A stretch of DNA of 64,000 nt, taken from positions 1 to 64,000 of the forward strand of contig JAULBX010010878.1 of assembly GCA_032358255.1 (NCBI GenBank). The letters are read 5' to 3'. Position numbers and translations under genes: made by a program. This document shows, piece by piece, positions 8,055 to 64,000 of this stretch. The notes under the pieces were generated by a model that saw nothing but the letters and a program-made list of their open reading frames with translations, searched no databases and was not told where the DNA came from. The first letter of the stretch is position 1, and each line of letters starts with the position of its first letter. The DNA comes from Heterotrichella gracilis. Lineage: Eukaryota; Sar; Xanthophyceae; Tribonematales; Xanthonemataceae.

Positions 8055-10470
8055 ATGATCTTGGGGGCGCGCCACTGCACGAGTGGTCTACGCTCACACA
8101 GAGCAGCATTGCTGTATGCATCGAACACGGCTTCCTTCGCCCCCTGCCGAGCTGTGTCAGCAAAAGGAGGCAGCCCTAATGTCCCAGGGGCAGCCCCACC
8201 CACCCATAGCCACCCCGTGGTGTACCACCCTGACTTCCAAATATCCCCCCTGCCAGACGGCCACAGGTATGCACTGCTTGCCCCTGCCAGTGCTGGTGGA
8301 TGTGCACCTGTGTAGGGTGCGCCATGCGGTCTGTAGGTATGGGCGTGAGTGGGTGTAGCCACTGTCTTTGGACCCTAACCCTAAAGTCATAGCATGACCA
8401 AGCGGGGGGCGCCTAGGCTTGTGTGCCTAAGGTTAGGCATGGCTAGGCTAGCGCGTGTTTAGGCTAAACATGGTGTGTCTAGCCAGGTGTAGCACAGCTA
8501 GCATGTGTGTTCAACCCTTCACCCACCCACTGCCACCACCCCTGCAGGTTCCCCATGCCGAAGGACCACCTGCTGTACTTGCGCCTGCAGCGCGAGGGGC
8601 TGGCTGACCGCACCTTCACTCCCTGCTACCCAGATGCAGACACCCTGGCGCTGGTGGGTGCAAGGAGGCTGGGTGGGGGCGCTCGTGGCTGAACCCTCGC
8701 GCAATCCGTTTGGGTGATGGGTTTAGTGTTCGCAGCCATGATGCACCCATGCGCAAGGTCCCTGGTTAGGGTTTAGGGTTCAGGGTTTACAGCCACGATG
8801 CTCCCATGCACAATCCCTGTATAGATAGCATGAATTAGGGTCTAGGAATTCAACATGGGATCAGATGGTCCAGTACCTGACCACATGCTCTGATCACACG
8901 CTCCACCACCTGATCACATGCTCCATCACGCCGCACCCCCTTGTCCCACCGCACTCCTCGTCTATGCCCCCCGATCACTCACCCGCCCTCCCCAGGCCCA
9001 CGACCCCACCTACATCCAATCCCTCCTGGAGGGCACCATCTCCCCCCAGGCCATGCGCAGGATTGGCCTACCTTGGAGCACCAACCTTGTGCGCCGCACC
9101 CTCATTGGCACAGGCAGCGCCATCCTGGCGGCCAGGCTGGCAATGGAGTACGGCGTTGCGTGCATGACCAATGGCGGCACGCACCACGCGCACAGGGACT
9201 ATGGCACAGGTGTGGGAACATTTTGCATGCCTTGCATTAAAAAAAGGTTTAGGACTTTCAACACTAGAGTGGCTTATTTTAGGGTTTTCAAATCAATACC
9301 ATGCGCACAGTGGCAACTGCACAGGTGCGGTGACCGGGATTGTAATACACAATTTGGAACGTAATGCGTGCGTGCATTTGCTGGCAGAATTTGTTGATTG
9401 AGTCACCTATTTAATGTATTCATGTAGATTATTTATGCGGTATACTAGTCTATGCTTGCAACCCCCCAGGCTGGTGCGTATTCAACGACCAGGCAGTTGC
9501 AGCACGCGCCTTGCAGCGGGACCGGGGGGTGCGCCAGGTGATGTTCATAGACCTGGACGTGCATCAAGGGGATGGGACAGCAACCATCTTTGCAGATGAC
9601 CCCACCGTGTTCACCTTCTCCATGCACTGTGGGGACCAGTCCTTCCCCCACGTGGTCCAGGCCAGCGACTGCAATGTGGCGCTGCCGGCTGGGACGGGCG
9701 ATGAGGCGTACCTGCAGGTAGGGGTAGAGGTGCAATAGGATTTAGGGTGTGTGGGTTAGGGTTTAGGCTGCATGCCGGGCGGATGATGAGGAGCATTTGC
9801 AGGTACCTGTTTTCTTGCATGGTGTGGGTGGAGGTGGAGGTGGGGACAAGGTACTGTCCCCATCTTGTTGGCGCATCCCTGAAGCCTTAGCCTCAAGTAT
9901 GCCACATATGACTGGTGAGGCTCTCAGATTGGATCCAAAGCATGACCATGTCACACGTGATCCGTTTTGCCAAAACTCTGGATGTTGGATGCATGTTGCA
10001 TTGACACTACCTATGTGCACTGGTGCCTGCCGCATGACACCACACATCCACCGTGGCATAGCAAATCTTGGCAGATTGCAACTTGCAAGCCTCAGGCTGA
10101 TTGATTGACCGTTCTTCCCGTTCCGCAGGCCCTGAGCGATACCCTGCCTGCCCTCTTGGACCGGGTGCGACCCGAAGTGGTGATGTACAACGCGGGGGTG
10201 GACGTGCACGTGGGGGACGCACTGGGCAAACTGGCCCTCACAACCGCAGGCATCTACCGGCGGGACTGCACCGTGCTGCAGCTGTGTGCGGCAAGGGGGG
10301 TGCCGGTGGCATGTGCCATCGGCGGGGGGTATGCGCCTGACCACGAGGGGATTGTGGATCGGCACTTGCAGCTGCATGTGGCTGCCAGGGGGGTGATGGC
10401 ACAGGTGGAGGAGGGGAGGTGGCTGGGGGCGCGGGGGAGGCAGGATGCTGTGCCAGCCCCAGGCGCCTGA
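8055..10470 (+). CDS. Histone-deacetylase-fold zinc amidohydrolase, bacterial/class IV-like, with organelle-type leader
   Basis: Five exons: 8055-8266, 8548-8653, 8996-9209, 9470-9717, 10129-10470; all phases close, giving 373 residues. Catalytic features are complete. The paired histidines are in THHAH (about 169-172). Zinc ligands are Asp and His in DLDVHQGDG (about 207 and 209) and Asp in NAGVDVH (about 285), and the catalytic Tyr is in GGGYAPDHEG. The wording GWCVFNDQAVAARAL and VMFIDLDVHQGDGTATIF is closer to bacterial HDAC-like deacetylases than to Rpd3 or HDAC11 enzymes (recalled, not searched). The first ~50 residues are rich in Arg, Ser and Ala and poor in acids, as in a chloroplast or mitochondrial transit peptide. 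I therefore infer an organellar or non-histone deacetylase; histone activity is unproven. The ATG at 8055 is the first of its frame. Confidence 0.85.
9768..9803 (+). repeat. Degenerate copy of HDAC exon 4 3' edge with its splice donor
   Basis: The end of exon 4 (about 9680-9722) is echoed in the following intron: GGGCG.GATGAGG...TGCAGGTA is conserved, including the CAG|GTA donor. A short TTTAGGG-type stretch (about 9743-9768) separates the two copies. Confidence 0.7.
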
Positions 10471-11855
10471 CTGGTTGTGGATGTTGAGTACAGTGCTGCC
10501 TGCCATGCCTGTATGCAACATAGGGGTGGACTGAAAAGGGAGGGTCGGGGGGATCTCAGTAATTACTGAACAATTAATTGTTCAGGACTGCAAGAACTAC
10601 CAGCCATCGTTTGCATATTTTTATGACACTACTTGTATATTGGATCGGATATTAGGCTACGCAAATTGAATCACATGTTGGTACTGTTACAGCACAACTC
10701 TTTTCATGCAACGTTGTTAACATGCATTGTACTAACAGCTGCCACAGTGACTGTTTCCACCATCACCCAGTTTACAGATATCAGCTTCAAAGCTACAAAA
10801 CTGGTCATCAATGACGCAACCACCAAGGCGCCCACTTATTAGGTGCATACATATGCGCATACAACCTTCATCCAAATTTTTTTAGTTTGCTGCCTCGTCT
10901 GACTCGCACCTCATCAGATATGTTATTCACTAATACCAACAAAGCACCATCAGCATATCTGTTCAACAATGACACGTGCATCAACTTTCCTCGCCTCACA
11001 CTGTTGTAAACAAATGCAATCTCCATTCAACAAAAACAAGTAATGATTGAGTTGCACGGTGTTGCTCGTATGATGCATGCATCCATGTCTACATGAGACT
11101 GTACAAATGCAAAATAGGCCCAGTGGGCAACCCGCAGGGCATGACTGTACAAATCATGGAAAGGTACAACATATCCATGCAAGTTTGCTTCCCTTTTTTA
11201 AAACAGTTGTACAGCCCTGGGCCAGTGGTATAGACAAATGCAGGCACAGGTTGCAGCTCTAACTGAGAAACTTTGGGCCGCAGCAATCAGGTGCACATTG
11301 CAAATTCCCTACCGAGTAATCGCTGATATGAAACTTTTGGCCAATACTAGTACAAATTCTGTGTTGCCAAAATGGATAAGTGTCTGGGCTATCCTGTACA
11401 GCACCTGCCCACATCTGCTAAAATCGTTAATCTCCATAGTCTGCAAATTCCCGGCAATTATGTCACAATTGTTGAAGAAGACCTATATGATACAGCCATT
11501 CAGGCGTGATATATGGCACAGCCTTTGCGTTCCTCTCCTCTCAATTCCCCATATGCGCTCCTGTCAGCACAAATGTGAGTGCCCCAACCCTGCAGCCAAG
11601 TCCCCACTGCCATCTGATGCTAAATTTGGTACCATCCTCAACGGGTGACAGTGCACCATCAGCTGACCTCCCAAGGACTCACATATTGCTAACACCACTC
11701 AATCACTCTGCGTGTTACATGTTTCCCCGCTTCTACTACCTCCACCGCCAGCAGCAGCTCTAGAACGCCCTCCTTCCATGCTCCCTCCCATGCCCCCCTT
11801 CATCTCCATCTCCTCCAGGCCTGGGTAGGGTACCCTAGGGTATCCCTAGGGTACC
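10471..11855. other. Convergent intergenic region, no gene seen
   Basis: About 1.4 kb between the HDAC stop and the stop of the minus-strand dioxygenase. The region is markedly more AT-rich than the genes. Open frames here are short, lack splice-flanked structure and show no family resemblance. Confidence 0.5.
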
Positions 11856-14315: not shown

Positions 14316-15349
14316 GGTGAGAGCAAGCCCCCCTTGACACGACGTGCAACGACTACCCAGGAGGATTTTCCTGCGCACAGGTACTTGTAGGTGTTAGAAA
14401 TCAAATACAGACCCAACTGCATTACTGTGTATCACGAGGGGACAATAGTTTTAGGACTTGTGCGGTCACTTTTGGTTCCTCGTGAGGTTTGAACTGTTGG
14501 TACCCTCGAGAGATTTGAGATCAGAGTGGGCAGGAGTTGGCGTTCTCTGGTAAACAATACTGGGAGGTGAACGTGCTATGCAACCCCGAGTCCCATGTCA
14601 AGCTAGATAGTATACGAGGCCATGGGTCAAGGAGAGCGCTACAGGTCAGCAACCAACGTGGGCGCCCATTGTTTGTTTTCTCGAGCAAACAACATGCATG
14701 CTAAACAGTCTTACTCCAACTGTAGACGTTTTCCACCCACAAAAAGGAACTTTCTGCAACCCACTTGCCAAGAACAAGCAATCGCGCACTCAGAACATTT
14801 GTGGCCATGTCGGGGGATCTGCAGACATGCCGCAAATCAAGCGTACCTGCGTTACCAGTTGCGTTCGCAAAAGCACCGGCCGCGGTCGAAACGATATTAC
14901 GGCGAAAGGCACCACGTCCAGATGTGCTTTGTAAGCCAATGAAAATGCGTTTTGGGTTGTTTTTGGGCAAAGTTTATCAAGGTGGAAAATTGGGGTGCGT
15001 GGGTTCTCAACAAGTGCCTGGCAGTTTGCCACTCAGACCAGTGCAAACGGTGTAGGGGCTTCTAAGCCACGAAATTGTTCGCTGAAGGACCTTGGAAACT
15101 CGTTTCTCATCAGAGCCGACGTGGCAAAGCAGTGGACAGACTTTCAGTGGGTATCAGTTTTGCCTCTGCTTCGCCCAATTTGACAGTGGCAGAGGCAGTG
15201 ACTCATGCAATGCCACAGATGCACTGACAGGGACCACTCTTTAACATGCGCCAGTTGCAACTGAGAATGATAAATACTATCCTAGCAGATTGACCTGGTC
15301 TCTGCTGCATCTTGCTTCTCGTGGAACACATGTGTGTGGTTGCCCACCA
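14316..15349. other. Interval upstream of the dioxygenase; possible short transcribed frames, unresolved
   Basis: About 1 kb between two minus-strand genes. Plus-strand frames near 14807-15055 and 14995-15183 are basic and Ser/Ala-rich, reminiscent of a targeting peptide, but I could not find phase-compatible exons that make a protein before the WDR53 gene. It may be promoter and 5' UTR of the dioxygenase. Confidence 0.3.
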
Positions 15350-17244: not shown

Positions 17245-17672
17245 GGTGGCCGGTCAGCACAGCAGGGAACAGCAACAGGCAGCCAGAGCATCCTTCTCCA
17301 TTTCACACCTCAACGTGAGCGGTATTGTAGACCTTGTGAGTGCCTGTCGACCATCTTGAGAACGAATTTTCCTCCCAAAACTTGAAGAACCGCCGGCCGG
17401 TCTGTGCAGGCCGCCTCTGCCGCCGTTCTCAAAGTGATTGGTCTGATGGGCAACACAAGAGCAACATACAACCCATCACAAGGGTTGCTGCGCAAGTTGA
17501 GTGTGCAAATTTGTGTGGTATTGTATTGCACTTGAGCCCTGCAAGTGGGCTTTGAGGGTTTAAGCTGTATCTGGCTGGGCGCCTTGCATCAGTATAGACC
17601 ACTGATTTGTGGCGAACGCATGACCTGGTCTCGCTAAACACGCTTGGCGACGTTTGTGAAAGGACAGCAGTC
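17245..17672. promoter_or_regulatory. Shared divergent promoter region, WDR53 / RPN2
   Basis: Only 428 bp separate the two start codons, so 5' UTRs and core promoters of both genes must fit here. I see no unmistakable TATA box. The call rests on geometry alone. Confidence 0.55.
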
Positions 17673-20600: not shown

Positions 20601-23600
20601 CGAGCAGTGCCCCAAGATCGTGTCCCTACTGGCCGAGTCCTACAACCCGCACGTGCGCTATGGCGCGGCCATGGCGGTGGGGATCTCGTGCGCGGGGACC
20701 GGCATGCGGGAGGCGGTGCGGCTGCTGGAGCCCATGATGGGCGACCCCGTGGACTTTGTGCGCCAGGGGGTGCTGCTGGCCATGGCCATGGTGCTCATCG
20801 AGCAGCCGGAGTCGCGGGTGGCAGGTACGCTGGCTGCAAAAACCCTAACCCTAAACGACACCTTGGCGTGCAGATTTTCCATGTGCACAAATGGCATTAG
20901 GCCTAGTGCATTGGGGTTGTGGACCTCATTGCCATGCAGGGCAGCTGCTGGGAATGTTTCCTCTGCAACCTTTTCTGTCCTGCACATGTACCCAGTTAAA
21001 TGCAGCCAGATGAACCAGTCAGCTATGCACAAGCAGTAGGCCTGGCACAAGCAATGAGCTGTGGTACTTCCTGACTGTGGTGCCTCCCGACTGCAGCACA
21101 CAATTCCCTCCATCCCCGCTTCTCCTGTGGTTATGCCCCATGCACTAACCTCAGCCACCCCCACCCCCCACCCCCCGCAGCCTTCCGCAAGCAGCTTGAC
21201 AAGGTGACCAAGGACAAGCATGAGGAGGTGATGTGCCGCATGGGAGCCATCATGGCCGCAGGCATACTGGACGCAGGCGGGCGCAACGTCACCATCGGTC
21301 TGCGATCGCGCTCAGGCACGTGTGACCTGTGGCACTTATTGTAGGGCGCCTTAATATCCAGGCCCTGTTCCTTTATCTAAGATAACACCTTGCATCCCTT
21401 TCTTGTCTATGGGTAGCATGCTTAGTCTGCTGTCATGACTTCACATTTTCTAGCCATGTACCGTAGTAGGCAACATGTGTGGTTATTGAAGAAGAAAGCT
21501 GGACCAGCAGAAAAGTGCTGACCAAGCAGTGTACGCCTCCTTCTATAGCTTCAGAGGCGTAAAGCCGCCATGCAGCAAGATTGTCAAGACCTGTCCCCTT
21601 GCGCAGGCTACTTCAAGCGCACGTCAGTGGTTGGCCTGGCCATCTTCACGCAGTACTGGTACTGGTACCCGCTGTCCTACTTCATCAGCCTCAGCTTCCA
21701 GCCAACTGCACTGGTGGCGCTCACTGGCGAGCTGCGCATGCCCAAGGTGCAGCTCACGTGCGCGTGCAAGCCAAGCCTGTTTGCCTACCCGGCGCCCGTC
21801 ACGCACGAGGCCACGACACAGGTACACGTTCTATTGGACTTTACAAAACCCCTATGCAGAACCCCGAAACAGGCTCGGATGTGAGTGGATACTGGGGCGA
21901 CTGGGATTTTCCATCTGCAGGAACCCTGTAGGATGGTTGTATATAGAATATACGGGGTTCTGACACCATCATCAGTAGTTTGCTGTACTGAAATGATCGT
22001 CATCAGTGGGCTCCCTGGTCTACCCGGCACTCCATTTTGCCCGCCACTAGATATCAGCACTGGCCCCTCACTGCTCTCCCCTTGCAGGCTGTCAAGGTTC
22101 CCACTGCAGTGCTGTCCACCACCGCGCGCGCCAAGAAGAAGCGGCAGCAGAAGGACAAGGGCAAGGAGTCAGCGGTGGCCATGGAGGAGGACGCAGCAGG
22201 TGAGGTTTGAGGGTTTGGGGTTTACGATTTAGGAGTCAGTGGTGGCCATGTAGGAGGATGCAGCAGGTTCGGGTTTGGGGTTTATGAGTCAGTGGTGGCC
22301 ATGGAGGAGGACGCAGCAGGTGAGGTTTGAGGGTTTGGGGTTTACGATTTAGGAGTCAGTAGTGGCCATGGATGAGGACGGGTAGGGGGAGGCCATGGGG
22401 AAGAGGCGGGGGGAAAGGGGTCAAGGGCACCCACATCGCCACATCGCATGTGGTGTACACTATAATACTGCTCAGGACCCTGTAGAATCTCTTCAGGCCG
22501 CTGCCATGGTGCTGCGGGGTTTGCATGACCTTCAGGATTGTCACTGCAATGTGGGCATGATTGCAGTTTTGCGCGTTCCTTTTCTTCTCTCTTTCTTCTG
22601 ACTATTCTTGATTATTTGATGTATGGGGCCAGAACGATGTGGTTAAGCCGGTGGTCGTTCTGGGAGCTATTTCTGCGATTGCAAGTAGTAGAGGTGCCAA
22701 TTACCAATATTATCTGCTAATCTGGCTGTACTGCTGGGACGCATGTGAGTTGCGCCAGAGATGCCAACAATTTTAGCCTGACCTGGTTGCTCTGTTGCCT
22801 GCCAGCTGACGCCACCGCCATGGATGTTGAGGATGGTGCCAAGGAGGAGGCCGCTAAGGAGGAGGCTGTGGCACCGGAGGCCACCTCGCACACCCTGGAG
22901 AACCCTGCTAGGGTCATCCCGCCGCAGGAGAAATATGTGTCCTTCGATCCCTCCAGCAGGTCAGTTTTGCGCCAGACCCATTTCAAATTCAGCCAAGCAT
23001 CGGACCATGCCTACCAGCAAAGTTGGGGGTTGGGAAGGCCTTGTATCCATACCAGTATGGATACAAGGCCTGCAGGCACCATCACCAGCGCCTAAATCCT
23101 AATCAGCTGGCATGCAGGCGGCCTTGGTAACGGCCCTGGTATAATCAAGACATGCTGGCTCAATGCCCTGACATCTGGTTTGAGTTTTTAAGGGGATGTG
23201 CAGAGTCCACTGCATCCAGTCTTTGCGGCGATTGCATCTGCCCATGTGCTCATGTCCCCACTGACAATACGATGCACCATTACAACTAGGCTTTCAAGCC
23301 AAACACCCTGCTGCCACACATGGCGGAGGCTCTTTTCCAGCGATTGACTAAGAGGCTTTCCTGTCATTATGCATATACAAAGCTGTAGGCTGTCCCTTCT
23401 CACCCTACCATTACAAGATCGGCTTCGGCGGAGCTCCAGCGCACGCCATATTATTCTGATGGAGCAAATAATAATATAATACCCTGCTCCGTTGCCTGCA
23501 GGTTTGTGCCCTTGCGGGAGGTTCCTGTGGGCATTGTGCTGGTGAGGGACACGCGCCCGGACGAACCAGTGGAGTATGTGACGGTGGGAGGGCCATCGGC

Positions 23601-27917: not shown

Positions 27918-32871
<4,954 letters not shown>

Positions 32872-35079
32872 GGGGCAAAACCCTAGGGCAGGGTACAACC
32901 CCTTAGCGAGGGTGCTGAGGGAGAACGCCAAGGACCACGTGTCGGTGCGACTTGGGTCAAGCGAGTGAGGGGCGGAACCCTAAGGCAGGGTATAGGGAAA
33001 CGTTGCAGGCTGGTCCAGCTTTTCAATTGGCAAGTGGTGTGGGGATGTGGCAGTGAGGGAGTGTAGATTGGGTTTACGACGCTTTTGTACCATATGGGGT
33101 GAACAATAGGTCCCTGGAAGGGACATTTAGGCAGCCTTTCTTCAGCATTGTTTTCAGCATCGTCGTGACCCAGTGGGGTCCGGACTGGTATGGACTGTAT
33201 TCGTCAGGGCGTTGATCCACTTCAGTATACATGGGTAGTAAAATGTATCAAGACATGCGTGACGTGTGGCACAATCGAGGTGTGAAGCACTGGGGTATAC
33301 TACGTTTGGTAATCGCACAAAGACAGGATTGGCATGGATTTAAAACTGGTTAACCAATTGCCCTCAGCGCACAGCAGTGCCTACTGAAAGCAATGTACCA
33401 CTTTGAAGCACTTGGCTAATGCTTGGACCCTGGTCCACAAAAAAACGGTTTCATTGTCATCACAGTGTATTCAATGTAAAATATTTTCTAAAATGTTGCG
33501 CTGCCGGCAATGACACTGGGAGTAGTACCACCTACTAGCTGGTCTGTGCAGTGTGTCGAAGACTTTGTAGGGCACCACCGATGCGACAACACTGGTGCCC
33601 CAAACCGGGGGCCCTGTTGTAAACACCATAAACCCTAAGCTTGATTGATGGTCGTGATCTCAGTCGCAGGCACAATGCACCAGGGTGGTTTGCTCTCTGA
33701 AATTTGCCTCGTCAAGTTCTTTCTGAATCAGGCCATGTTCCTCTGGTTGCTGCCTCGGGCTGGCCTGTCTGCGTTTTCAATGATGGGCCCATTGGCCTAC
33801 CAGTACGTTGCTGGCTTGTGGTGCACATGTGCCGCTTTGGATTCCATTCAGTGGAGGGCCCGGGGGTCCTTTTGTTTCTTCCTTCTTTTGCCAGAGTTAA
33901 ACTTTGTTACAAAACCCGTCCAACCGATGACTTGAATTTCAAGGGCTGTTGATCATTAATACAAAATGAATGATTGGAAATAAATTGACCAGCTAAACCA
34001 CACAGCAAGCATGCATGCTACGCACCACCAGGTTGAAGCAACCAGACAGTCATTTCAAGCAGAGCGAGGAGACGAAGAAATGGAAAAGGCAGAAGCAACT
34101 AAATTGCTTCCTGGACAGACCCTTCAAGCAGTACTCATCTATAGACAGAACTGTTACATGCCCAGCCATGGCTGAGTCTGGTTGCTAGGAGATCAACCCT
34201 GTGTCACATCCAGTAAATGCATGGGTTGTGCTACTAGCTCCCCTAGCTCCAGATGATGCACAACCATATGTGTACTGCAACGATTGCAGCTCAAACCCTG
34301 AACCCTCCACTTTACCTTGGGTGCCCATAATGTCAATTACTGCGGTTACCGTAACCATTGGATTTTTTAGTAAACTATGAAGATGTAGCGTGTTAAGCCT
34401 GAGGGTGGCAACCGACAATGGTTGTTGCTTGTCCCCTCAGGCAAAACACACCACATTTTCATAGTTTACCACAAAATCATATGCTACACTCCTATTCTCC
34501 CCTCCCGCGTTGGTTTATCTATCCAAAATGGGCTAACTTACCCTTGCAAAACAAATGCACATATTCACATTCTTCAATTACCCTTGGAAAATGCCGAGAA
34601 TGCTCAATGTCCCCGCAATTGGTCAAACGTGCCCTGTCCATCTTTCTTACTGAGCTTCCCAGGTACGTGTGTAAATTTCACTGCACAAAACTGATGCCAT
34701 AATGTATACTTACACCTATATGAATGCTCCAAGTAAGACCCAATCATCCTTGCTCAAGCTGTTCCATAGGTTCATCAGTACTCCCCCATGGACTGCTGTG
34801 CTCCCCATTGTCAACAATTGTCCAGTATTGTATCGCATGCCACCTCCAAGCTGAATCAAGCCCATCTCCTGCACAGACGGCAATCCACACTCTTAATGCA
34901 TTGGCATCCCCTTCACATGTACCACATTCACCGGACAATCGCACCATGCACACCCACCTACACCTGCCACACCATCCCCAACTAACATAATTCACATTTG
35001 ATTTATTTGGTTAATTGTTTGTTGAATTTATTTTCATTCTTTTTCCTTGCATTGACACAACCTGTCTTGTTCTGCAGCA
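32872..35079. other. Intergenic, 2.2 kb, no supportable gene
   Basis: After the terminal-exon copy, the sequence is AT-richer and holds overlapping open frames around 33645-33952. These have no recognisable domain and no clear splice context. The last part is upstream of the small membrane-protein gene and may hold its first exon. Confidence 0.45.
32909..32992 (+). repeat. Near-identical copy of the Deg1 terminal exon including the stop codon
   Basis: The last coding block of Deg1 plus 3' flank (about 32814-32900) is repeated 97 bp downstream with roughly ten differences in 85 bases. The copy preserves the reading frame VLRENAKDHVSVRLGSS and ends in its own TGA. It lies beyond the true stop at 32869-32871. 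Confidence 0.95.
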
Positions 35080-37505: not shown

Positions 37506-40500
37506 TCAGCCTGTTCCACCCGCCAGCGCGGCAGTTTCCTGCCGCAGCGCAACGATGGCGTGCAGCATGGCGCGGTCGTGCTGCCACCTGCAGCAGCAAA
37601 AAAATGACTAGTTAGCCCTGAAACAACAGACTGCCCGCCATGGCCAGCGGCAACTCGCAGGCGGGCATGCTGCCATCTGAACGCATGCACATGCCACATT
37701 GGTACCAACCGCTCATGGAAGTGATTCATTGAGTGGGGCAGTGCCACGTACAGGCCCTTGGTTTGCTATGGGATCCAGGGTTTGCTAGGGTGATCTAGCT
37801 ACAGCAACAGAAGGACTGGTCCGCATGTGAATGTGCTAGTTGCACACACAGCGCAACGTGCCAGGGGGTGCATGACATTGAACCCTAAAGCACACTGTTT
37901 ACTTCCTTTCTTTCACAAGAGTTTGCAGCAGTGTGCCAGCGTGCAGGCCCTGGGTTTGCCATTGTGATCTGGGGTTTGCTAGGGTGATCTAGCTGCGGCA
38001 ACAGGAGACACAGTGCGCCGTGGGACAGGCGGCGCCAGCGCTTGCATGCAGAGAGCCCACCAGGAAGTAGCCAGGTCAAACACATGCCCTACATCACTAT
38101 ACCACCCACCACTCACCACACCACCCACCACACCACCATCCGCTAGTCACCCACCCGTGCCGCATGCGAGTGGCCTCCAGCAGCTCCCCCCACCCCTCCA
38201 GCACCAGCCGCTCCTCAGCACCCACACACCCCACCCGCCCCCCACGTGGCGCCGTACCCCCCACCACTCCCGCCCCATCCTGTGCAGCCTCCCGGCTCTG
38301 GTGTGGGGTGGTAATTGCGCCCTGGTGGGGGGCGGCGATTGAACCCCGGTGGGGTGGGGTGGCTGCTCTCTGGTTAGTTTGGGTGGTGGCTCCCTGTATG
38401 GCTGCCATGTGAGATTCCAGCGCTCGAGCTGCTGCCGCTGCGCGGGTGAGGACTGTGGGTGGCAGGCCCGCTGCCCCAGCTACTTCAATTCCGCAGCTGC
38501 CCTGTGACCAGGGTCAAGCGGATGTGGGTGGAGGCAAGGCGGAGGCATAGTCAACAATGACACAGAGTGCCATCTGCACAATGTGTACAGATGGGACTAT
38601 GTGTCAATGTGCAGCACAATTCTCCCTCAAGAAGCAGCAAAACACCCTAGCTAAGGTCAAGTGGATGTGGATGGAGGCAAGGCCGAGGCACGGCCAACAT
38701 TCACACAGTGCCATCTGCACAACCCTAACTTCTAAGCAATGATACCTTAGCTAGGGTCATGTGAATGCAGATGGAGGCAAAGCAGAGGCATGGCGAACAT
38801 GACACATGGGGCCACCTGCACAAGTTCAAATCTTAAGCCCAAAACCCTGGCTAGGGTCCACCCCACCTGCGGCGCCGGCCCCTCCCGCAGCCTGTACAGC
38901 GGCACAAACCCTTCCCTAGGGTCCACCTCGCTGGCCATGTGCCCCAGCTGCACCCTCCCCGCCAGCCCCGCATCCCCCGCCAGCCCGTGGTAATGCGTGG
39001 CGAACAGCGCGCGGCACCCCACCCCCGCCAGGTGTCGCGCCACCGCGGATGCGATCGCGTGCCCATCGTGGGTGGCTGTACCTCGACCCAGCTCGTCCAG
39101 GGCGAGGAGGGATGCGGGGGTGGCGGCGTGTAGCATGGCGGAGGTCTCGGTCATCTCCACCATGAAGGTGGACTGCCCTGCGATGATGCGGTCGTGGGCG
39201 CCTGCAGTACACGAGGAAAGGGATGGGGTTTTATAATGGAGAATTCTTTACAACGGATAAAAGTCCATCACTGTGGGATTAATGGAAAAAGGAATATATT
39301 AAGGGGGGGGTGCAGGTCTTTCCTCCACCGTTTTGAGCATTATTGTAAACCCCTCACTGGTACCGTGTCATGCTGGCGTGCAAAAGAAAAAAAAGGGCAG
39401 CAACGATGGTGCCCAGTTGGTGGGCACACCTATGCTTTTGAAAATCAACTGGAAACCCTAAACCCTAAACCCAAAAAATGTTTTCCATGTCCCACAGGGG
39501 CGCACCTATGCGTGTGAAGATGCGGTCTGTGGGTGACAAGCGGGCGGTGGTTGCGGGCACATAGCAGCCCACCTGCGCCATGATTGCTGCCAGGCAGGTG
39601 GCACGCAGGAGGGTGCTCTTGCCACCCATGTTGGCACCTGCGCACCAAGAGGAAGTATATTTCTTGGTGCATTTGTATCCCCAACCTCAACGCGGGTGAT
39701 TCTACCACCACCAGGCACCTGCGCATGTTGGCACCCATTCACCCACCATGCTATTGGAGTGACTGTGGACCATGTCTCCCAGCGGCCACGTAACAAATAT
39801 ACGTAGACCTACACTCATATAACAGAAGTATGTATGCACTCTAGAATATCATAACCAGGTTTTGCATGCATAATTATAACTGCGCATAATCCCCACCAAT
39901 TGCACAAATCTTGCCAACCCCATCGGCATACCGGTCAGCAGCAGGAACGGGTGCTGGTCACCCCCCAGCTTCAGATCGTTGCACTCAATGCCCTCGCCCC
40001 TTCCCAGCTGCCTGGCACCAGCCAGTGCCAGCAGTGGGTGCCACAGCCCCCGCAGGTCAAGCACCCCCCCCTCGCCCCCCCTCCCACCCCCCACCACCCC
40101 CACCACCCCAGAGGTGAAGCTGGGGCGGCAGAAGGAGCATCCCGGGGGTGCGTTGCCGGGATCAGTGGCGTAGGCCAAGCCTGCCAATGCGTCCAGGGAG
40201 GCCACTGCGTCTATGAGGTTGGACCACAGGGGCAGGCGCTGGAGGAACGAGCCCGCGACCTGCAGGAGGTGGGCGGTAAATAAACTCATTTTATTACAAC
40301 AAGATAATATATTTTAAATAAAGTTGAATGAAATACTTAAATAAAGGTGAGCGGCATGTTGCATGGCTCATGTGGCACTGGCATGCAAGTGGAAGCCTTT
40401 GGGTGGGTGTGGAGTGTGGGGCAGACCAGTCAGGACGTCAATGGCGGCCACTCCCGTCTATTATATTGGATCACAAGGGATGGGGCTGGGCAAACAAGCC

Positions 40501-43500
40501 CATGACCCACAGCAGGAGGGCGGTATGTCACACAATGGTGCACAGATCGCATGCTTCATGTTGCTGGCATTCAGATGGGGACGCCACATTGAAACTCCAC
40601 CTAATAGCTTCTGATCGACGGATTATGCGCGGCAGTCATGCCTGTACCAAGAGTTTAGGGTTTAGGATTTGTTTTTTTGGGTTTTGTAGAGTACACAAAC
40701 ACAGAGTACCAAGGATTCGCACCTCTGCCATGACGCCAAACAGCACCTCCCGCTGCGCGCGCTGCGCCTGCCTCAGCCTGTCTGCGGCCGCATCCAGGTG
40801 CAGGCATCCGTACCTCAGCGCTGCCTTGGTCTTGCCCACCTCCACGTGCCCTTGGGGCAGCGCGTGGCAGGCCTCTCTGGGCACCTGGAGCTGCCACTGG
40901 TCTGCAAGGGAGGTGGGTGGAGTGATCGGGCGGTGATGGTGGCGGTGAAGGGGGATTGAAGAGAACAGGGATGAGACATAATTGGACATGAATCTTGTTG
41001 ATACTTTTTTGCGAGTACGCCTGTTACTGCAGCCAGGTAATGAAGCAGCGCTTTTATCCATTTTATTCCATTCTGTTTTGTAACAGGATTTGATTTATTA
41101 TTGAACAGGGTTGGGTACAGTGGGTATCTTACCTGTTGCAGAGCAGTGGTGCTTAGGAGGTGGAGCTTGGCAACCCTTCATGATACCCTAAAGAAAACCC
41201 TAGTGCCTCACCTGTTGCCACGCAGTGGTGCAGCTTGACCTGGCCGGCCACCTTCCCCGGCACGCCTGCTGCCGCCAGCTGGCGCTGCTCCTCGGCGCAT
41301 GTGGCGCGCAGTTGGGCGCTGCACTGATGCACAGCCTGGGTGGCGTGGTCGTACTGACCGTTCACACCCTGCGCGAAGCAGAGTTTCGGTTACAATTTCA
41401 GCTGCTATTCCATTTACAAGCTCCAATCACATGCGCCGCAGTTTGAGTTACATTACACTTACCTTCACAATTAATCGCACCCTGCGCGTAGCACATGGGG
41501 TGTCAAATCTGAAATCAGCCTGGAAAATCTTCCTTTCTACATAAATAAGGATCAGTTTGACGTTCAGATTCTCCATACCGGTATGTGTCGCCAGATTGGC
41601 ATACCTACCTGGAACCCACCAGGATGACTGAAATCGAAACAACCTGCATTGATGTATTGGAAGCAGTTTCTTATATCTATACAACCGTGAACGTTGCAGG
41701 TGTTGATGGTCAAGTACTCCCTCCCTCCCCCCAACCTCACCACTTGGAAACGCTGTTCAGGGTCTGGTTTAGGGTTTAACATCACCTCTGCCAGCATGAC
41801 CTCCTCACCCCCTTCTGTGAACCGCTGCGCACTGAACACCCCCACCAGCTGCTGCAGCCCCCCCTCACCACTCATGGCTTGCTCGGCGGCTGACCATGCG
41901 CGCTGCAGGGGTGGTATGCCCTCCCCTCGCACACCCTGGGAGTGCAGCGCTTGGTGCAGCTCAGCCAGGGCGGTGCACATGCTGCGGCAAGGGGGGGTAT
42001 TTTAGGGAATTTGTGGGCAGGGAAATTTGATCTATTAAATGTCTTGGCTGGAGAGTTCATATTGCAGTTGGGAATACCCTCCCTGTGCAACTTGGCCAGG
42101 GCGGTGCACATGCTGCGTCAAGGGGGGATGTTTCAGAAAATTTGGGGGCAGAGGAAGTTGAGTGCCTTGGCTGGAGGACTTCACAATGCAGGTAGGCATG
42201 CCCTCCCCTTTCTCGTTTGGCAGAAAGAAGCTGGTGCAGCTCGGCCAGGGAGGTGCCCATGCGGTGCACCAGCGATGGTCGGATCACCGGGCAGGATACT
42301 GTGCGGAGAAAACAGAGTCTTGGTGCAGGTGGGTCAGAGCCCTCCTTGTGCTTCAGCAATACAAGAGGGGTACATGCTACAGGCAGGTGTTAACCTTCAT
42401 GTGGGGATGGGGCAATATCATGGACATTTGGGCTGAGGCGCACAATCGTATCTTATTTTGGAGCTGCAAGGTGCTCATGCAAGGGCCATGGCGGGCGCTT
42501 GGCCAGGGATGCACTGCTTACAAAAAGGGCTAGATTTTGGTAAAGGGCAGCGACGGTCACCATGGTTTGATGGCTGTTACCTGTCTAACCCCGCAAACAG
42601 ATTGGCAGCATGCACCAGGCTGGCTTGGCTGGCATCCACCACAACCGGCGCAGAACCCTCATTAGGGTGTAGCCCCTCCCCCCCACCCGTCGCGCCCCTA
42701 GCCACAAATTGCTGCAGGATGGCTGCGGCCTTGGGCAGCAGTCGCTCGCAGTCTGGCAGGGGTGCGATGGCATCTTGAAAGGCTAGGGTGGCATCGGTGT
42801 GCACCATGAAGCACTCCACTGCCAGCAGGCGCTGCTCGATCTCGGAAACCCTAGCGGTTGTGGGAGAAGTGGGTGGATAGGCTCCGGAGGGCGGAAGATA
42901 AGTGGGGAAGTATGGTCTATAGACCCTGGAGGGTGTAGAGAGGCGCATTTTACCATTTTCTTGTTCAAGATTTAACCTTTCCTTCCCCCCACCAGTGTGC
43001 GTTCTGGTAGGGTAGGAGCTGGTATGTAGGCCCCACGGGCTCAGCCCGACTCTACCCAGCTGGACCTCAGGTTGCGCATAACAAAGAGTGTAACACTCCC
43101 AGGACCATACTGCAGTCGGGTTCCCGCAAATGTAAGGCTGCCTGCTAATCCTGGCTGTATTGTTGGAATGCGTTGAGTTATTTGCTCACCTGAACAGCGG
43201 CCTGCACAGCCAGCTCCTTACCCGCCTGTGTCCAGCGGGAGTGGCTGCGTAGTCCAGGAAGGATAGGAGGGAGCCTGGAGGGCCAACACAGTATGTACAA
43301 TATTTTGTAGTAACAAAATATAATGCATATATTACGGTATTCTAACAGCATGGCGTCAGCACAGCGGTATCTCATCAATGATTGCCCACGATGCCTAGGT
43401 CAGCCTCACCTTTACATTAAAGTGCAGATATATGCGCTAACAGTGGCAACAGAGCCACCCAGCATTGCTATGCAGGGCAGCATGCAACACTCAAGTCCCT

Positions 43501-47520: not shown

Positions 47521-47682
47521 CTGCTCAGCTGGAAGCTACAACCCACTGCGCAAGTAAACTCGACATATAGTGGTATATCGAAGCACCTGGCGTCCTTAGA
47601 CGTCACCTGGCCAACAACGTTTGGGTTCAACTGCTAGACCGTGGTGCGACATTTGGGTGTTTACCCAGCTGCAGTTGCCATG

Positions 47683-47756: not shown

Positions 47757-47831
47757 TTTTGGGTTTCAACTCGGCAGTAGTCACGCCATAGGGCCACTAA
47801 GCCTTCTCTGATACAGTCCGTTTGCCTGCAG

Positions 47832-51647: not shown

Positions 51648-54600
51648 TCACTCACCCAGGCCCCCTCCTCTACCGCCCCCCCCCTGTAGCGTGGAATAGT
51701 AGGCAGGCGCGGTGGCCGCATGCAGCGCTAGGGTGTCATAGTTGTGGTTGTAGCTGTCAAAAAAACCTAGGTCATCATTCCTCCTTGGTGTGGGCCGGGT
51801 GCGCACAATGGGCATCGGTAACACATGTGCTGATCCATCCTCAATCACTGGAGCCAGAATGTGAGCTGCCAGCTCCTGTTTCAGCTTCTGGGCTTGTGCA
51901 GCGTAGGAGGACCCCTGGGAAAAGGATGCGCGAGACCGGGGACTTGAAAGCTTCAAACCAGGGGGCGGGTGGAAGGCATGGGAAAGGCTTGTGGCACGGA
52001 TGGGAGGGTTGCGCAACGTATCTGATGGTGCAACGCTTTCCAGTGCCAACATACTGCGGCGGGAATGAACAGAACTGCACTGCACCGTATTAGGGTTTAG
52101 GGTTTAGGGTTTAGGGTTTAGGGTTTAGGGTTTAGGGTTTAATACAAGGAGCCACTAAAGCTCCCTGGATGGCACACCTGGCAGATAATGTGGTACCACA
52201 TTGCAGGACATTTAATCTTCCTTATATCCATCCATGCGCCCATCCGGGTGGTTGGAGCACACCATGAGCACCCCCACCACCCACTCCCACCTTATGTCCC
52301 CTGACATCATGTCCCTTTGGCTTGCTTTCCCCCCACCTGAGCAAACATGATGGTCCCCACAAGCAGCATTGCAAAGCCGCCCAGCACCACCCATGAGCTT
52401 GCATCCCACGGCTCCCCAAAGGCGCCTCCCCCCATATGCAGGTAGAACAGCGCCAGCTCACACATCCACACCAGGGCAGTGCGGGTGGTGAGCAGCACGG
52501 CGCGGAAGACGGACCCTACACAAGGGTTTATTAATGTTGTTGAGGGTTTCAGGGTTTTGGATATAGGGTTGTGCGGGTGGTGAGCGGCATGGCGCAGAGC
52601 ACGGACCCTAGGAAAGGGCTGAAGGAGAAGGATCTCTTTGACTTGTCATAGCGGAGTTGTGACCGTGATTAACATTGTCATTCACACTTAATGTAAGCTG
52701 GTGGTGCAATGCGAGGGCAAGCCACAGCCCCCAGGCCTCAGGGACTGTTATCAATGTTGAAGCCGACACTGTAGTACCGAGAAATGTAAGTTGTAATGCT
52801 ACATTAACAAATACAGCCCTCATGCAGAAGCCAGGTGACAGCATTCCCATACTCTCCCCAGGTTCTATCATAGTATGCCACTTACCAAGATGGCTGGTCA
52901 CCAGCACGCCGTACAGGTTTGTGCCCACCACCGTCAGCCAGTAGATAGAGTTCCACAGAAACACGTTCTTGTTGTCTGTCAGCATCACCAGGCTGTCCAG
53001 TGTGTTCTCCTGGCGGTTGTCAATGTCCTCCCCTGCAAGGGGAGATATTTTATCATCATTATATATTATTAGTAATATTGTCATTGATAATTATGAACAT
53101 GATTATTGACAAGGGGAGAATGTGGGTAGGGATTTCCCAATGGCAGGGGTTCTATGCTGCAGACTGTCCAAGCGCATAGCAATGGCTTTTGCAATGCCAG
53201 CGTGGCAATCTACGGAAGAGCAGATGACACCAACAGACCAGCACACACCTGCGCCCCAACAACACAAACGCATCCCCAACCAGCAACCCACAGGCAACAA
53301 ACCCTGAAGGATCACCGTACCAATCCTCCTCCGGCCACACACCCCTGTCCCCACTCCCCACTCCCCACCCCCCAACTGCCCCCACCTGGCAGCACCCACG
53401 CCAGCGGCATGAACACCAGCCCCATCCACGCCACCGACACCACCCCCTCCCACCCCACAACCTCCATGGGCTCCATGTGGCCGCCGCCAGGCGGAGCAGC
53501 GCCATGCGACACACCCAGCAGCACCTCCTCAAGCACCAGCTGGCCAGCCTGGACGACCTGAAGTGGGTGGTGGTGGTGGGTGGTGGGGGGTTTGGGCTTG
53601 GACAGGGGGGATTAAGTGGGAGTTGGGTGGTCCAATGGCTTGGTGGGTGCAATGGTAGCGAGGACTTCGCGCACGTGGCACGTATTGCGCCATGAGGTCA
53701 TCGCCTATATTCCATGGCGCTCACATCGAATGAGCTCAGATGAGTGAATGCCCCAATCATGGTGTGCGCGGCCCTCCTGGGAAGCAAAAATGCGGGCAAA
53801 TTCACCCTTGTTGTGTGCTACTTACCTGGGATGTGAGGATGAGCGCAATCCCAATCATGGTCTGCGTCGCTGTGGGGGTGGGGTCTGCAATGTCTTGCCC
53901 TGTGGGCGCCCACATCCCCTCCTCGCCCTCTCGTAACAGCAGCACCTTGGCCAGGGACACCACCATCACACCCACCAGGGTAAGCACAATCCCTGGGGAG
54001 GGTTCGTGAAGCGCGTCAGATGTGTCAAGGGCACAAGCTCGGTGGGGTACTGTAGAGCATTTTGCCAGCAGCACTCCAACACAAGTGATTTCTCAGAGCA
54101 CATGCGCCCCGTAACGCATCCGTGCACGTGAAGAAGTTCCAATATGAACCAACCCCATTATCATGCAATGTCCACAAGCGGACCACCCCTCATCAAGCAG
54201 TGCCAGGATAGGTCCAGCATTGGATGCACTGTATGTGACTGTCAATCTTACTGATGCTGGCCAACATTGGGCGTGACATCACCACTGCAGTGCTGGTGCC
54301 TCTACATGTGCAACAGTCTTGAACAAACCCTCTAGTACAACCCTGCCCCCAACCCCAGCGCGCCTCTGTTTAGGGTGTAGGGTGTAGGTTTTTTCGCCGC
54401 ACCCATGACGTGCAGCCAGTTGAGGCTCTTCTTCAGGAACAGCACCGACAGCGCGGCTGTGAACACAATGCAGCTGCCGGCAACCATCTGGTTCATCGCA
54501 GCTGACACATATTTGAGCCCCACGCCCTGGATGATGAGGCACAGGCGGCCCAGGAATGCGGGCCAAATCAGGCGGGTGAGGCCCCACCAGCCGACCCAGA

Positions 54601-59625: not shown

Positions 59626-61620
59626 GCGATACAGCCGCTGGAGCTGAGTGTGACCACGCGGGTGATCATGCACAGCCGCAGTGGGTGAGGAGAAGCCAGG
59701 CAGGGCCAATACTGGGGCATCATAAGCCAATGCTAGGGCAACATCACACGAAAAGGTCCGAGGGGAGCCCTGCGGGAGCAAGGGAGGCGGCCACTGCAGG
59801 GGTCCAACGCCAGCACAGGGGGTTGGGAAATCATGGGTGTTGTGGAGCTGCACTGGAGCGCTGGGTGAATGGTTCAGCTGGGGCTGGCGCGGGACTTTGG
59901 GCAGCTTGCAACCGGCCACGCTGGGGCCCTGGGCCAACGAGGGTGGTGTGCCTGCATGCTCCCCCTTGAACACATGATGGCAGCTCAGCACACTCACTGA
60001 CACGGTCCAGCGCTGGCCAGCATAGGCACCATGGGGTTGATCAACGAGCCCTCCTGCACCACATCCCGCGTTCTGGAGTGGCTGCAGGAATAGAATGTGC
60101 CTGGCCAGTGCGTGGCAGCGGGGGTTCAATTGACCGGGGGGGGTATTACGAATGACGCTAACTGATGTGGACTTCGTGTTTTTATTGGTGCGTTAGGGTT
60201 TCTTCACCTTGTGCACACAAATTGCATGTTGGGTATGCAGCTGGGTTCTGTACCAGGGTCTTCTCTGGGGCAGGGGATTTTCTGGAAGGCTGCATGGTTT
60301 TTTTTGTCTCAGTCAATGATGACCAGTTGGATTGTTCAGTTCAACTTGTTTATAGTCAATTAGTTCAAAAGTCCTTGGCCAATCTCCAGTCTGAGGCACC
60401 GATTACGTGTCCGACGTCTACCACTTGCAAGCACTCCGTGGCTGTCGGCAGCTAAATGACCATGCCCCTGCAGCTCAGCCTGCATGACATTCAATGTGCA
60501 ATTTGCAGAGCAGTGTGTGCATGCTGTCGCCCAGCACCTGCAGGCGCTGCGCTCAAGTTGGTATTATTATCAGCCTACAGGCAACACGTATTACAGCTGG
60601 CTTGTAACAAACAGACTGTCACTTTAAGTTGAGAATTTGGCCCAAGAAAGAATGCAAACAGCTTTCGTTTTATTTCCCCCGCCAGCTGACGGCACGTTCA
60701 CTGAAGTAAAACATACTACCAAGCTTGCCACAAGTAGCTGGTGCACAAATCAGATCCTCACAATCTCCACTGCCAGGACACATCCAATTGGCCCACCGCA
60801 ATGATTACCAACTTGGATTATGCAGCAGTGACATAGCATGAATCATCCTGCGCATGCATGATGCCCAAAGATCTGATCACGCTACCGGGTAACCTGACCT
60901 TGGTCCAATTGAAACGCAAAAAGAAAGAAATAATTAGAGACAAGCATCAACATAGGCATGCATATTACGTCTGCGCCCTGCCATTTGTCAGCCTGCCAGC
61001 AACTTTGCAAATGATCCTCTTCAGGTTTGTTTCTTTCCAGCTGGGCAGAGAAGCAGCTTTGCAACTGGGCCACTTTGAACCTTTGAGCACGAGTGCATGC
61101 AGTGCCTACTCGGGACCAAGCTGGGTGTTCACTATGTGCTGGATTGATCCTTTGTCCCTGTCTTTGCAACCCAAAATGGACCCCAGCACTGGGTCGGAAG
61201 CCAGGTGCCTGGAACGCAGTGCCTCATCCCCCTTGGGCTGGCAGCTGCGCTCACAAGACGTGTGACCCCCCTCCCTCAACACGCCCCTTTCCCCCTCTTC
61301 CCCCTCCCCTCCCACACGAGCGCCGATAGCGGAGGCGCTTTTAAGCCTGCCACTACTGGTGCTCCCTCGTCGCAAGCAGGGCAGCTCCACGGCATTAGCA
61401 GCCACATTCACCTATGGCCGCCGCGGGTGCCGATGGCGGAGCGCCTAGACTTCCTCCCCTGTCGGTGCTGCCTCGTTCCCCTGCCATGACCCTATTAAGC
61501 GCCGCAAATGCCGATAGCGCTGGCGCCCCAACATCTCCCACTGCTCTCACTGCTGTGCAGCCTTGGGCGCGGGCAGTGCACATCCATGGCAAGTTGCGGG
61601 AACCGGGAGCCTTCTGACCA
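59626..61620. other. Convergent intergenic region, no gene seen
   Basis: Two kb between the TPT-gene stop and the TMEM115-like stop. It starts with a short echo of the TPT last exon (GTGAGGAGAAGCCAGGCAG at 59686-59704). Its right end (61318-61530) holds degenerate copies of the TMEM115 terminal exon edge. A plus-strand frame at 60858-61265 has no recognisable content. Confidence 0.45.
61318..61530 (-). repeat. Degenerate copies of the TMEM115 terminal exon edge
   Basis: The GC-rich phrase GGTGCC.ATGGCGG....GACTCC from the last exon (about 61635-61660) reappears at about 61320, 61425 and 61507, at spacings near 80-130 bp. All copies lie downstream of the stop in the presumed 3' UTR. Confidence 0.65.
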
Positions 61621-64000
61621 TTACACTATGGGCGCTGCGGGTGCCAATGGCGGGGGTGACTCCACGTCATCCGCTGCTGCTGCGGGTGCTGCCTCGGGCG
61701 CCAACAATGGCTTGAGGCCCAGCCGCTCCTCCAGGGCGCGTGCGCCTCGCTCCCTGCGGTGGGGGATGGGGGGTGAGGGGTGAAGGGGATGGGGAGGGTG
61801 AGGGGGAGGGTGAGGGGCGCGGGGAAGGGGGGCACACTTACGCGCACCATGTGGTGGTTTGGGCGAGTTGGGATCGCGGCTGGGATTGGGTTACTTTCGG
61901 GTTGGGGTCATGATTGGTTGGGATCCCATCGCTTGGGATCAGTTGGGATCAAATGGATTCCAGGTGTGGGATCGTGATTGGTCATGAAGTGCCCGGGGTG
62001 GTGGGATCATGATTGGGCGCGAGGCAGGGGAAGCATATGGCAGCCTAGACTGCAGGCATTGCCACCACTGGCCTACAGCACTGCTTATTCCCACGGGACA
62101 ATGCATGGAGACACTGGTGGCTTGCACTATCGAGCATGGGCATGCCCGCACACAGATGACACGATGCTGTATAGCCTTATCAAGCCACGCCATGGTATCG
62201 CCACCATGTGTCCACGCCAAGCAGACCACCACCCCAGCCATCACAGCACGCATGCCCCACATCCCGCCCCCCCCACAGCAGCATCCAAACCCCGCTAAAC
62301 CCTAAACCCTACACCCTACCTGCGCCTGCTTGCCTCCACGTTGTCCGACCCCGGCAGGGGCGCTGCCGCCTGGAGCGCCTTTGCCTTGCTCTTCTGCTCC
62401 TCACTAAAGCTTAGGCGCAGCAACTTGGCCAGCAGGCCAGCTGGCAGGTCGATGGCCGGCGCCAGGAACCAGGGGAAAAAGGAGGAGAACTTGAAATCGT
62501 CGCTGGGGTCCCCGCTGCAAAGAGGTGGGTTGCATTAGTTGCAGGTATGAAGCCAGTGTGTGGGATGGCCGGGGGGTGTGTGGGGTGAACCCGCAGGGTT
62601 TGCGACACACACAACCACGCATACGCAGCAGGTGGAAAGCCAATGGGCTGGGCAGCGGTGGACTGAGCTGCAGCTAGCCAGCTGGCTTGGAATGGGACCG
62701 TGTCAGCGGGGGTGGGCCAGAATGCAGATGCTGTAAGACTACCCTAACATCAGTCGAACCCTAACCCGAGACCTAAAGCTGTTTGCACTGGAGATTGCTG
62801 TCCTTGGGCTGCAGGAAACGCAGGTAGAATCTGAAACCCTTGCTTAACCCTTCACAGTTAAATAACCTTAAACCCTGGATGCATTTCGTACCGCAGCTCC
62901 CCGCCCTTGGGCTGCAGGCAACGCAGATAGAACCCTAAACCCTACACACAGCCATACCGCAGCTCCCCGTCCTTGAATTGCAGGAAGCGCAGGTAGAACC
63001 AGGCGATGTATGCGCCAAACAGCACATAGGGCAGCACCATGGTCGCCTGCTTGAGCACCACACCCACCACGCAGGCAACCACCAGGTACATGCACACCAG
63101 CCACTGCACCAGGGGAGGGGGCACAAGGGGGTTAACGACTCGAGTGCGATCACCAAGCTGGGTTTAGGTTTAATAAGGGTCATTTACAAGCTAGCCCTGG
63201 TAATAGATGACAATGACGTGCGGAAGGAAGTGGTGCGTGTGCAGGGTAGCGACACACGCCTGAATAGGTTATGGTTGAAAGCCATGTATGTAAGGAAGAG
63301 GTATGCAAGCGGTCTGTGTATTGGCTGAGACCCCGTGCGGTGGGCTTTGGGGCTCGTATTTTGCCTTTGATAAACCCTAAACCCTAAATACTAAACTCCG
63401 TGGGGCTCGTACCTTTGCTTTGAAGCGAATGAAGCCCAGTAGAGTGACTTCGTTGTCAGGCATCACCTGCTTCACCCCAACCAGCAGCCCGCTGAACACA
63501 CCATGGAAGCCTGCTATCTCCTTAAACCTGCACACCACCAGAGGGTCAGAGAGCTCCCACAAGGCAAAAAACCAGGTTTTGAGCAGCCTTGAGGGATACA
63601 ATTTGTTTGAGAAACGTACAAGATTTGGCCCGAGATCTCGTCGTTCCCGCTGGTGGTCATGAAGAGGATGATGACCAGGATGAAGGTGGCGATGTTTGTG
63701 AAGACATCCACCAGGATAACAAACTTGAGGTACTCATTGGAGCCCCACACAGGCTCGATCAGCCGGGACAAGAAGAGGACACCCAGCACGCTCACCACCA
63801 GCTGCAGCCATTGGGTATTTTTTGTGTGTGGAAAGCATAATGGGCTACCTCAATCCCCTAGAACAGCTGCAAACAGGCCCAGGGCAGCACCAGCAGGAAA
63901 TTACAACTCGATAGTTGTTTGTGCAGTACTTACCGAGTAGACTGATAGCTCAATGAAGCCTGCTGTGAGTACGTTCCATACAAAGGGCAGTGTCCTGCGA
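61621..64000 (-). CDS. TMEM115-like rhomboid-fold Golgi membrane protein, 5' partial
   Basis: Visible minus-strand exons: (64000)-63934, 63801-63620, 63527-63413, 63103-62958, 62514-62320, 61753-61621; phases close. The 5' part lies beyond the window. FVWNVLTAGFIELSVYS, LLVGVKQVMPDNEVTLLGFIRFKAKW, LPYVLFGAYIAWFYLRFLQ and the landmark RGDPSDDFKFSSFFPWFLAPAIDL match the plant and animal TMEM115 family. This family has a rhomboid-like fold but no catalytic Ser-His pair and acts in Golgi organisation and retrograde traffic. The C-terminal ~100 residues are an Ala/Pro/Glu-rich cytosolic tail. Exon 4's donor edge has two copies in the next intron. Six to seven membrane spans are expected; four or five are visible. 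Confidence 0.9.
62802..62936 (-). repeat. Two copies of a TMEM115 exon donor edge in the following intron
   Basis: The 3' edge of exon 63103-62958 (plus-strand phrase TACCGCAGCTCCCCGTCCTT then TTGCAGGAAGCGCAGGTAGAA) is repeated at about 62889-62936, nearly whole and with an equivalent GTA donor, and at 62802-62832 in part. TTTAGGG blocks lie between the copies. Confidence 0.9.

Follow-up and report, generated by a model that had tools for sequence, protein, structure and literature searches.

Why should pieces of exon edges, splice sites included, recur in the adjoining introns of several genes? The question is raised by a 64,000-nucleotide stretch of DNA from Heterotrichella gracilis (hereafter the window; contig JAULBX010010878.1, positions 1 to 64,000), for which a first-pass annotation claimed at least nine exon-edge cases in six genes and a process with a preference for exon borders. 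Our self-comparison of the window bore out the count, with ten exon-edge copies in six genes, one of them weak (Table 1). As to their cause, we think it fairly probable that they reflect a very frequent small tandem duplication that selection filters and that telomere-like tracts partly anchor, and these small tandem duplications probably arise by break repair. The copies are local and direct, and one stays a working exon while the other decays as intron.

Local duplications in the window and beyond

The window is contig 109 in a 903-contig, 68.5-Mb assembly (GCA_032358255.1) and has a guanine-cytosine (GC) content of 49-59% in 4-kb steps. We fetched 34 further loci, one of which (L002) is excluded from every count; the window and 19 loci (254 kb) form the first set, and 14 later loci, namely nine CCT-gene loci picked by Pfam PF00118 and not by repeats plus five random loci, form the second. 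The gene models are our own hidden Markov model (HMM) predictions, trained on the first set without RNA support (454 exons in 254 kb) and applied in that form to the 14 later loci, and the gene finder is unable to call introns shorter than 50 bp. Overlapping duplications were merged into one family with the best pair retained, and the period P is the distance between copies in bp; the threshold for local pairs and families was 38 bits in both sets.

At this threshold the first set contains 145 local pairs, against a chance expectation of about 0.2 pairs at 36 bits or more in the same area (scaled from 19 locus-versus-next-locus comparisons), which upholds the earlier claim of local duplication that is unusually active and exceeds random repeats; its recurrence across unrelated genes held as well. 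Copy spacing is mostly 70-250 bp. The pairs merge to 89 families (38 splice-edge, 29 both-exon, 13 noncoding, 6 exon interior and 3 gene ends), and a recognisable duplication overlaps 100 of the 522 predicted introns, or about one in five. The second set yielded 15 families, including 11 in the nine CCT loci that, when read against HMM-placed exons, comprise eight splice edges, two gene ends and one intron; the automatic classes for these loci are four splice edge, four both exon and one each of exon interior, gene end and noncoding. The shortage of noncoding families is not significant in either part of the second set alone (p 0.061 for the nine CCT loci; p 0.139 for the five random loci, with 4 families). 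Many both-exon families look like edge copies miscalled as mini-exons, and the predicted proteins show repeats that support such miscalls, e.g., AVGLATNNPVMIV...SPLM twice. Relabelling as intron 28 short predicted exons that sit on duplication copies, as in the main exon-masked and tract-split results below, changed the classes of all 104 families from 34 to 10 for both-exon, from 48 to 69 for edge and from 13 to 16 for intron-only. The gene-end class is unsure (3 of 89 families in the first set and 2 of 15 in the second), and one of its members, L007 9530, looks like a missed donor. The density of duplications is very uneven, with 33 local pairs in L018 and none in five of the 19 ten-kb loci (L005, L009, L016, L017 and L021).

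The working copy is the one contiguous with the body of the exon, as the annotation had proposed. The DEG1-type protease is closest to the chloroplastic 'Protease Do-like 1' (3qo6), an Arabidopsis protein. The junctions of its three splice cases fall in ungapped stretches of the 3qo6 alignment (the only gap, of two residues, is exon-internal), which leaves no doubt about the working copies in this gene. The repeats of the window do not always involve exon edges, since the predicted MutS-family gene also carries duplications that lie within introns by our own models.

Table 1. Exon-edge copies and associated repeats in the window
Gene or feature	Positions	Strand	Copied part and copies	Remarks
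Histone deacetylase gene	9472..9805	+	Exon 9472-9717; 3' edge with donor 9681-9720, weak intron copy 9767-9805	Copy 75% over 40 aligned columns, E 0.14 (1.2-kb self-search, search space set to 4 million); gene identity PF00850, 9.1e-23
RPN2 gene	22088..22400	+	Exon 22088-22199; 3' edge and donor repeated in intron	Best pair 22166-22258 / 22286-22378, 96%, period 120, spacer GGGTTT-rich; joined exons match RPN2/PSMD1, splice junction in variable region
DEG1-type protease	29960..30256	+	Exon 3' edge with donor 29960-30022; copy 30187-30256	73%; junction contiguous in 3qo6 alignment (DHTLTT/GVISG)
DEG1-type protease	31126..31361	+	Exon 31283-31361, 5' edge with acceptor; further upstream copies 31135, 31186	Self-match pair 31135/31223; exon supported by 3qo6 alignment
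DEG1-type protease	31970..32406	+	Exon 32224-32406, 5' edge with acceptor (32219-32252); copy 31970-32003	85%; exon supported by 3qo6 alignment
DEG1-type protease	32791..32992	+	Last-exon end, stop codon and some 3' sequence 32814-32895; tandem copy 32911-32992	90%, period 97
MutS-family gene	40190..40525	-	5' exon edge with acceptor 40190-40259; copy 40436-40525	74%; gene identity PF00488, on another predicted exon
MutS-family gene	41952..42262	-	5' exon edge with acceptor; copies 41954-42083, 42085-42207, 42232-42262	
Intron-only duplications, same predicted MutS gene	37741..38823		37741/37933; 38512/38655/38753	
EamA-like transporter gene	52473..52618	-	5' exon edge with acceptor 52473-52526; copy 52565-52618	AGGGTTT-rich spacer; PF00892 match on another exon, below cut-off
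TTAGGGT telomere repeat	52090..52141	+	Perfect, 7.4 copies	In predicted intron of EamA-like gene
DUF1751 membrane-protein gene	62782..63000	-	3' exon edge with donor 62931-63000; two intron copies 62864-62934, 62782-62840	GTAGGGTTTAGG immediately before first copy; gene identity PF08551, on another exon

The excluded locus L002 (contig C1, 894 kb) has 36% GC and long open reading frames and looks bacterial and Bacteroidota-like, either a companion bacterium or a contaminant; it weakly matches nadB and another gene of Bacteroides-group plasmids. A phage search using 8 kb of the window gave no match.

Exon edges and the fate of the intron copies

The edge preference looks strong at first sight. 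Relative to random shifts, noncoding-only families are scarce (13 of 89 against 49.7 expected, with exon-in-both placements discarded) and splice-edge families are in excess (38 against 26.8 expected, p 0.004, with the both-exon class left out), and copy coverage is highest in the outer 20 bp of exons. The random-shift test is unfair, however, if exon-derived sequence stays recognisable longer. In an exon-masked test we therefore hid the exons, detected duplications from intron sequence alone and compared them with simulated random tandem units of matching periods, with thresholds of 36 and 42 bits in the main test, 34, 38 and 44 bits in a stricter classification and 36 bits where families were split by tract. 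With the short exons relabelled, 22 of 47 families spanned an edge against 32.7, 28.2 or 23.5% in the simulations (p 0.03 to 0.0004), and 12 of 23 did so among those of at least 85% identity; at 42 bits the fractions were 18 of 40 against 22-32% (relabelled) and 21 of 39 against 27-36% (models as predicted). The stricter classification, which overlooked edge families with an intron part not adjoining the exon, placed 12 of 42 at an edge against 28.5% expected. Expressed as odds over chance, the preference falls from about 5-10 in the raw counts, a span that reflects different ways of treating the 29 both-exon families, to 1.8-2.9 under exon masking and to 1 under the stricter classification. 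The raw preference is mostly a by-product: most of the excess vanishes under exon masking and can largely be put down to selection that removes exon-internal copies, to the shortness of introns and to the longer persistence of exon halves. The annotation had named deep intron being duplicated as often as exon edges as the finding that would speak against a preference, and the masked fractions (22 of 47 against 24-33%, 12 of 42 against 28.5%) come close to that.

After duplication the two copies fare differently. Over 66 exon/intron pairs (not all independent; threshold 40 bits), differences by codon position number 130/92/194; of 33 indels in the exon part, 32 shift the reading frame, not being multiples of three. 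Both patterns fit an exon under constraint paired with an intron copy free to decay, and the suggestion that the process seeds new exons found no support. The splice dinucleotide, whose carriage along with the copy had been claimed and is confirmed here, is retained in 52 of the 62 families in which the junction lies inside the alignment (27 of 32 donor and 25 of 30 acceptor copies), and in 32 of the 62 the copied site scores within one unit of the real one, which makes these sites potential decoys on sequence grounds. A reading of the intron copies as alternative exons could appeal to these retained dinucleotides, to the many copies that the gene finder calls mini-exons and to one lipin copy that differs mostly at silent sites; coding constraint on both copies was not found, and with the overall codon-position pattern and the frame-breaking indels against it we give this idea very little credence. 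The lipin case is an exon edge at L018 6457-6907 whose intron copies differ mostly at silent positions, unlike the general pattern; the codon constraint on copies that it suggested failed across the 66 pairs.

Assembly artefacts, such as two haplotypes placed in tandem, might be suspected in a 903-contig assembly that includes a Bacteroidota-like contig. Yet the copies differ by about 3-31%, only one side of each pair shows neutral decay, the DEG1 exons concerned keep an intact reading frame and artefacts would not respect exon borders, so we find this account scarcely credible. The repeats might instead be scars of intron birth, in which a duplicated exonic segment gave the donor and the acceptor of a new intron, a process known in other eukaryotes from parts of PMC4974935 and PMC3443670. 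The copies here lie near the same edge, and the same-offset layout, with a donor in copy 1 and an acceptor in copy 2, was seen in none of the 104 families (judged by eye, introns shorter than 50 bp being uncallable), which makes such an origin very improbable.

Telomere-like tracts and a possible mechanism

TTTAGGG arrays begin within the first 4-7 bases of at least seven contigs (C70, C140, C526, C609, C717, C770 and C824), indicating that this is the telomere repeat in the genome; perfect telomere arrays also occur well inside other contigs, e.g., C46 and C120. Counting as telomere-like tract any window that matches (CCCTAAA)n at 11 or more of 14 positions, we found that tracts occupy 3.8% of the bases in introns, 0.94% in intergenic DNA and 0.17% in exons, and CCCTAAA ranked first in introns among 151 periodic 7-mers (CCCTAAA and 150 random draws). 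In 32 of 97 edge pairs the intron copy has a tract within 12 bp beyond its exon-side end, against 3.9% of random intron positions, and duplication footprints contain a tract in 44 of 81 edge families (17.1 expected), 5 of 13 intron-only families (2.4 expected) and 2 of 10 families touching intergenic sequence (1.9 expected). When the exon-masked families were split, those with a tract comprised 17 edge and 14 intron-only families (31.7% edge expected, p 0.006) and those without comprised 5 and 11 (28.4% edge expected, p 0.49); with tracts masked too, 14 of 25 tract families were at an edge against 37.3% (p 0.044). The residual edge excess thus shows in tract families and is absent in tract-free families, although the two edge fractions are not significantly different (Fisher p 0.22).

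Tracts are also denser 20-60 bp from exon edges in 273 duplication-free introns of at least 200 bp (3.9% vs 1.1%, ratio 3.4, 95% interval 2.1-5.7), where old, unrecognised duplications could have placed them. At 20-40 bp from acceptors almost all are in the CCCTAAA orientation (0.044 vs 0.001), a sense bias also noted for 20-60 bp from acceptors as a whole, and near donors both orientations occur; by the rules of splicing TTTAG is a possible false acceptor and CTAA a possible branch point, and the bias near acceptors is expected if either acts as such. In 50 two-copy edge families tract density is 0.078 in the gap and 0.070 in the homologous outer stretch, so the tracts may only have been copied along, whereas in 11 two-copy intron-only families it is 0.164 in the gap against 0.031 in the outer stretch. 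The tract may be filler inserted at the event, as favoured by its exon-side adjacency and the richer intron-only gaps and countered by the equal densities of the edge families. A stronger proposal is that tracts drive the process, with telomerase or telomere fill-in machinery making the duplications at intronic TTTAGGG/CCCTAAA. The identity of TTTAGGG as the telomere repeat, the top rank of CCCTAAA, the adjacency, the footprint excess, the edge excess in tract families, the tracts near edges of duplication-free introns and the richer intron-only gaps all favour it; with 37 of the 81 edge families lacking a tract, gap and outer densities equal in edge families and an orientation near acceptors that follows splicing, we regard it as unlikely.

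Under the reading we favour, that of frequent, selection-filtered tandem duplication with partial anchoring at tracts, staggered breaks would be repaired by fill-in of both ends and then end joining, or copies would be made by backward template switching. Whole-unit tandem duplication of this kind predicts that the intron part of the unit is copied too, and in the 41 families with P<145 some 91% of the expected intron part aligned. Selection would remove duplications inside exons, and those spanning an edge would be harmless because the first donor or the last acceptor still works. Telomere-like tracts would act as preferred break or fill-in ends, and a unit of about 100 bp ending at one would include the exon edge. 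CST is a telomere complex, which makes a link to the tracts attractive, though the tie here is one of association. In mammalian cells, according to passages of PMC8355091, CST and Pol alpha-primase fill in 3' overhangs and end joining then gives small tandem duplications. Template switching at tracts would look the same as fill-in, and a CTC1 profile search gave no match here and none in control genomes either. A bolder version, which we consider unlikely, is that the tracts found 20-60 bp into introns are prone to breakage or fill-in and that each break there duplicates about 100 bp including the edge, so that telomere machinery steadily lengthens introns and scatters decoy splice sites. Our literature searches of open-licence papers found nothing on a link between telomere-like tracts and intron duplication, and this link is the new part of the reading.

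Weighing the reading against its rivals and known systems

A number of results weigh against frequent tandem duplication filtered by selection as the whole story. An edge fraction 1.4-2 times that expected remains in most exon-masked versions: with models as predicted, 26 of 47 families span an edge against 27-35% (p 0.004 to 0.0001), and a looser test on the relabelled models, requiring 25 bp of intron-to-intron similarity, placed 32 of 48 at an edge against 39% (p 0.0001), but 9 of 19 where identity was 85% or more. The edge preference claimed in the annotation is not supported in its strong form; what is left of it is this residual excess, seen in tract families with the Fisher result given above; the lack of a significant difference between tract and tract-free families and a tract orientation near acceptors that follows splicing sense, with no obvious break-end pattern, likewise count against anchoring at tracts. 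Periods look bimodal, with one peak near 100 bp and another near 190 bp (Silverman p 0.02 for all families and 0.005 for two-copy families, tested after the data had been seen; in the small second set none of 15 periods lies between 125 and 160), which simple random breaks do not predict. In the 34 families with P>=145 only 26% of the expected intron part is recognised, gap-to-outer intron similarity is significant in only 12 of 33, and some young families (L006 802, L019 2528 and L007 6990) lack such similarity. Low intron complexity as a cause of this fast loss was rejected, introns being not lower in complexity than exons. Finally, intergenic-only families number 2 in 75.6 kb against 13 intron-only families in 160 kb, which may point to a link with transcription. 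None of the explanations considered here covers the bimodal periods, the intron loss at P>=145, the uneven density and the few intergenic cases together.

Several of these points would suit a dedicated process that copies exon edges and is tied to splice sites or spliced RNA, e.g., through border cuts of RNA:DNA hybrids. It would account for the scarcity of noncoding-only families, the peak of copy coverage in outer exon, the residual masked excess and the few intergenic cases, and also for copies that end within 10 bp past the junction, which number 16 of 30 (13 of 30 after extension) at P>=145 against 10 of 41 and 7 of 41 at P<145. Against it, the edge fraction of tract-free families is that of chance (5 of 16 vs 28.4%), the masked excess is small, or nil under the stricter classification, and donors (54 pairs) and acceptors (43 pairs) are involved to a similar extent. 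Moreover, some young copies whose alignment stops near the splice site do have a similar intron half (L007 9530, L020 9138 and L004 7658, p<0.01; L006 9695, judged by eye) and others do not, and this hidden similarity is part of the reason for the raw edge excess. We consider a dedicated process improbable, and retain tandem duplication with selection and partial tract anchoring as our preferred account.

The cases resemble several known systems in part. The CST-Pol alpha-primase duplications described in passages of PMC8355091 are likewise local and direct; they are made at break ends with telomere fill-in machinery involved, in mouse and human cells with induced breaks and overhangs of about 50 nt, and those passages mention no telomere-like junction sequence, whereas here periods are mostly 70-250 bp and telomere-like tracts occur in 31 of 47 exon-masked families. 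In intron gain by tandem duplication, as portions of PMC3443670 describe it, the duplication also crosses an exon-intron border and copies splice signals, but its outcome is a new intron; in the present cases an intron already in place becomes longer, and the copy within it decays. Direct repeats near intron splice sites (PMC11782384, in part) share the location at intron-exon borders; they measure 4-30 bp and lie at or near both borders of an intron, in contrast to mostly 30-110 bp at one edge within the same intron here. Introners, from sections of PMC9860276, are similarly a genome-wide change of introns but consist of dispersed similar introns, whereas we saw almost no matches between neighbouring loci (19 locus pairs).

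With about one in five introns overlapped by a duplication and the splice dinucleotides mostly kept, the genome offers a natural test of how spliceosomes discriminate decoys and of how introns grow. The longer life of the exon half can strongly bias repeat surveys toward exon edges. Should the tracts prove to be the cause of the duplications, intron evolution and telomere maintenance would be linked.

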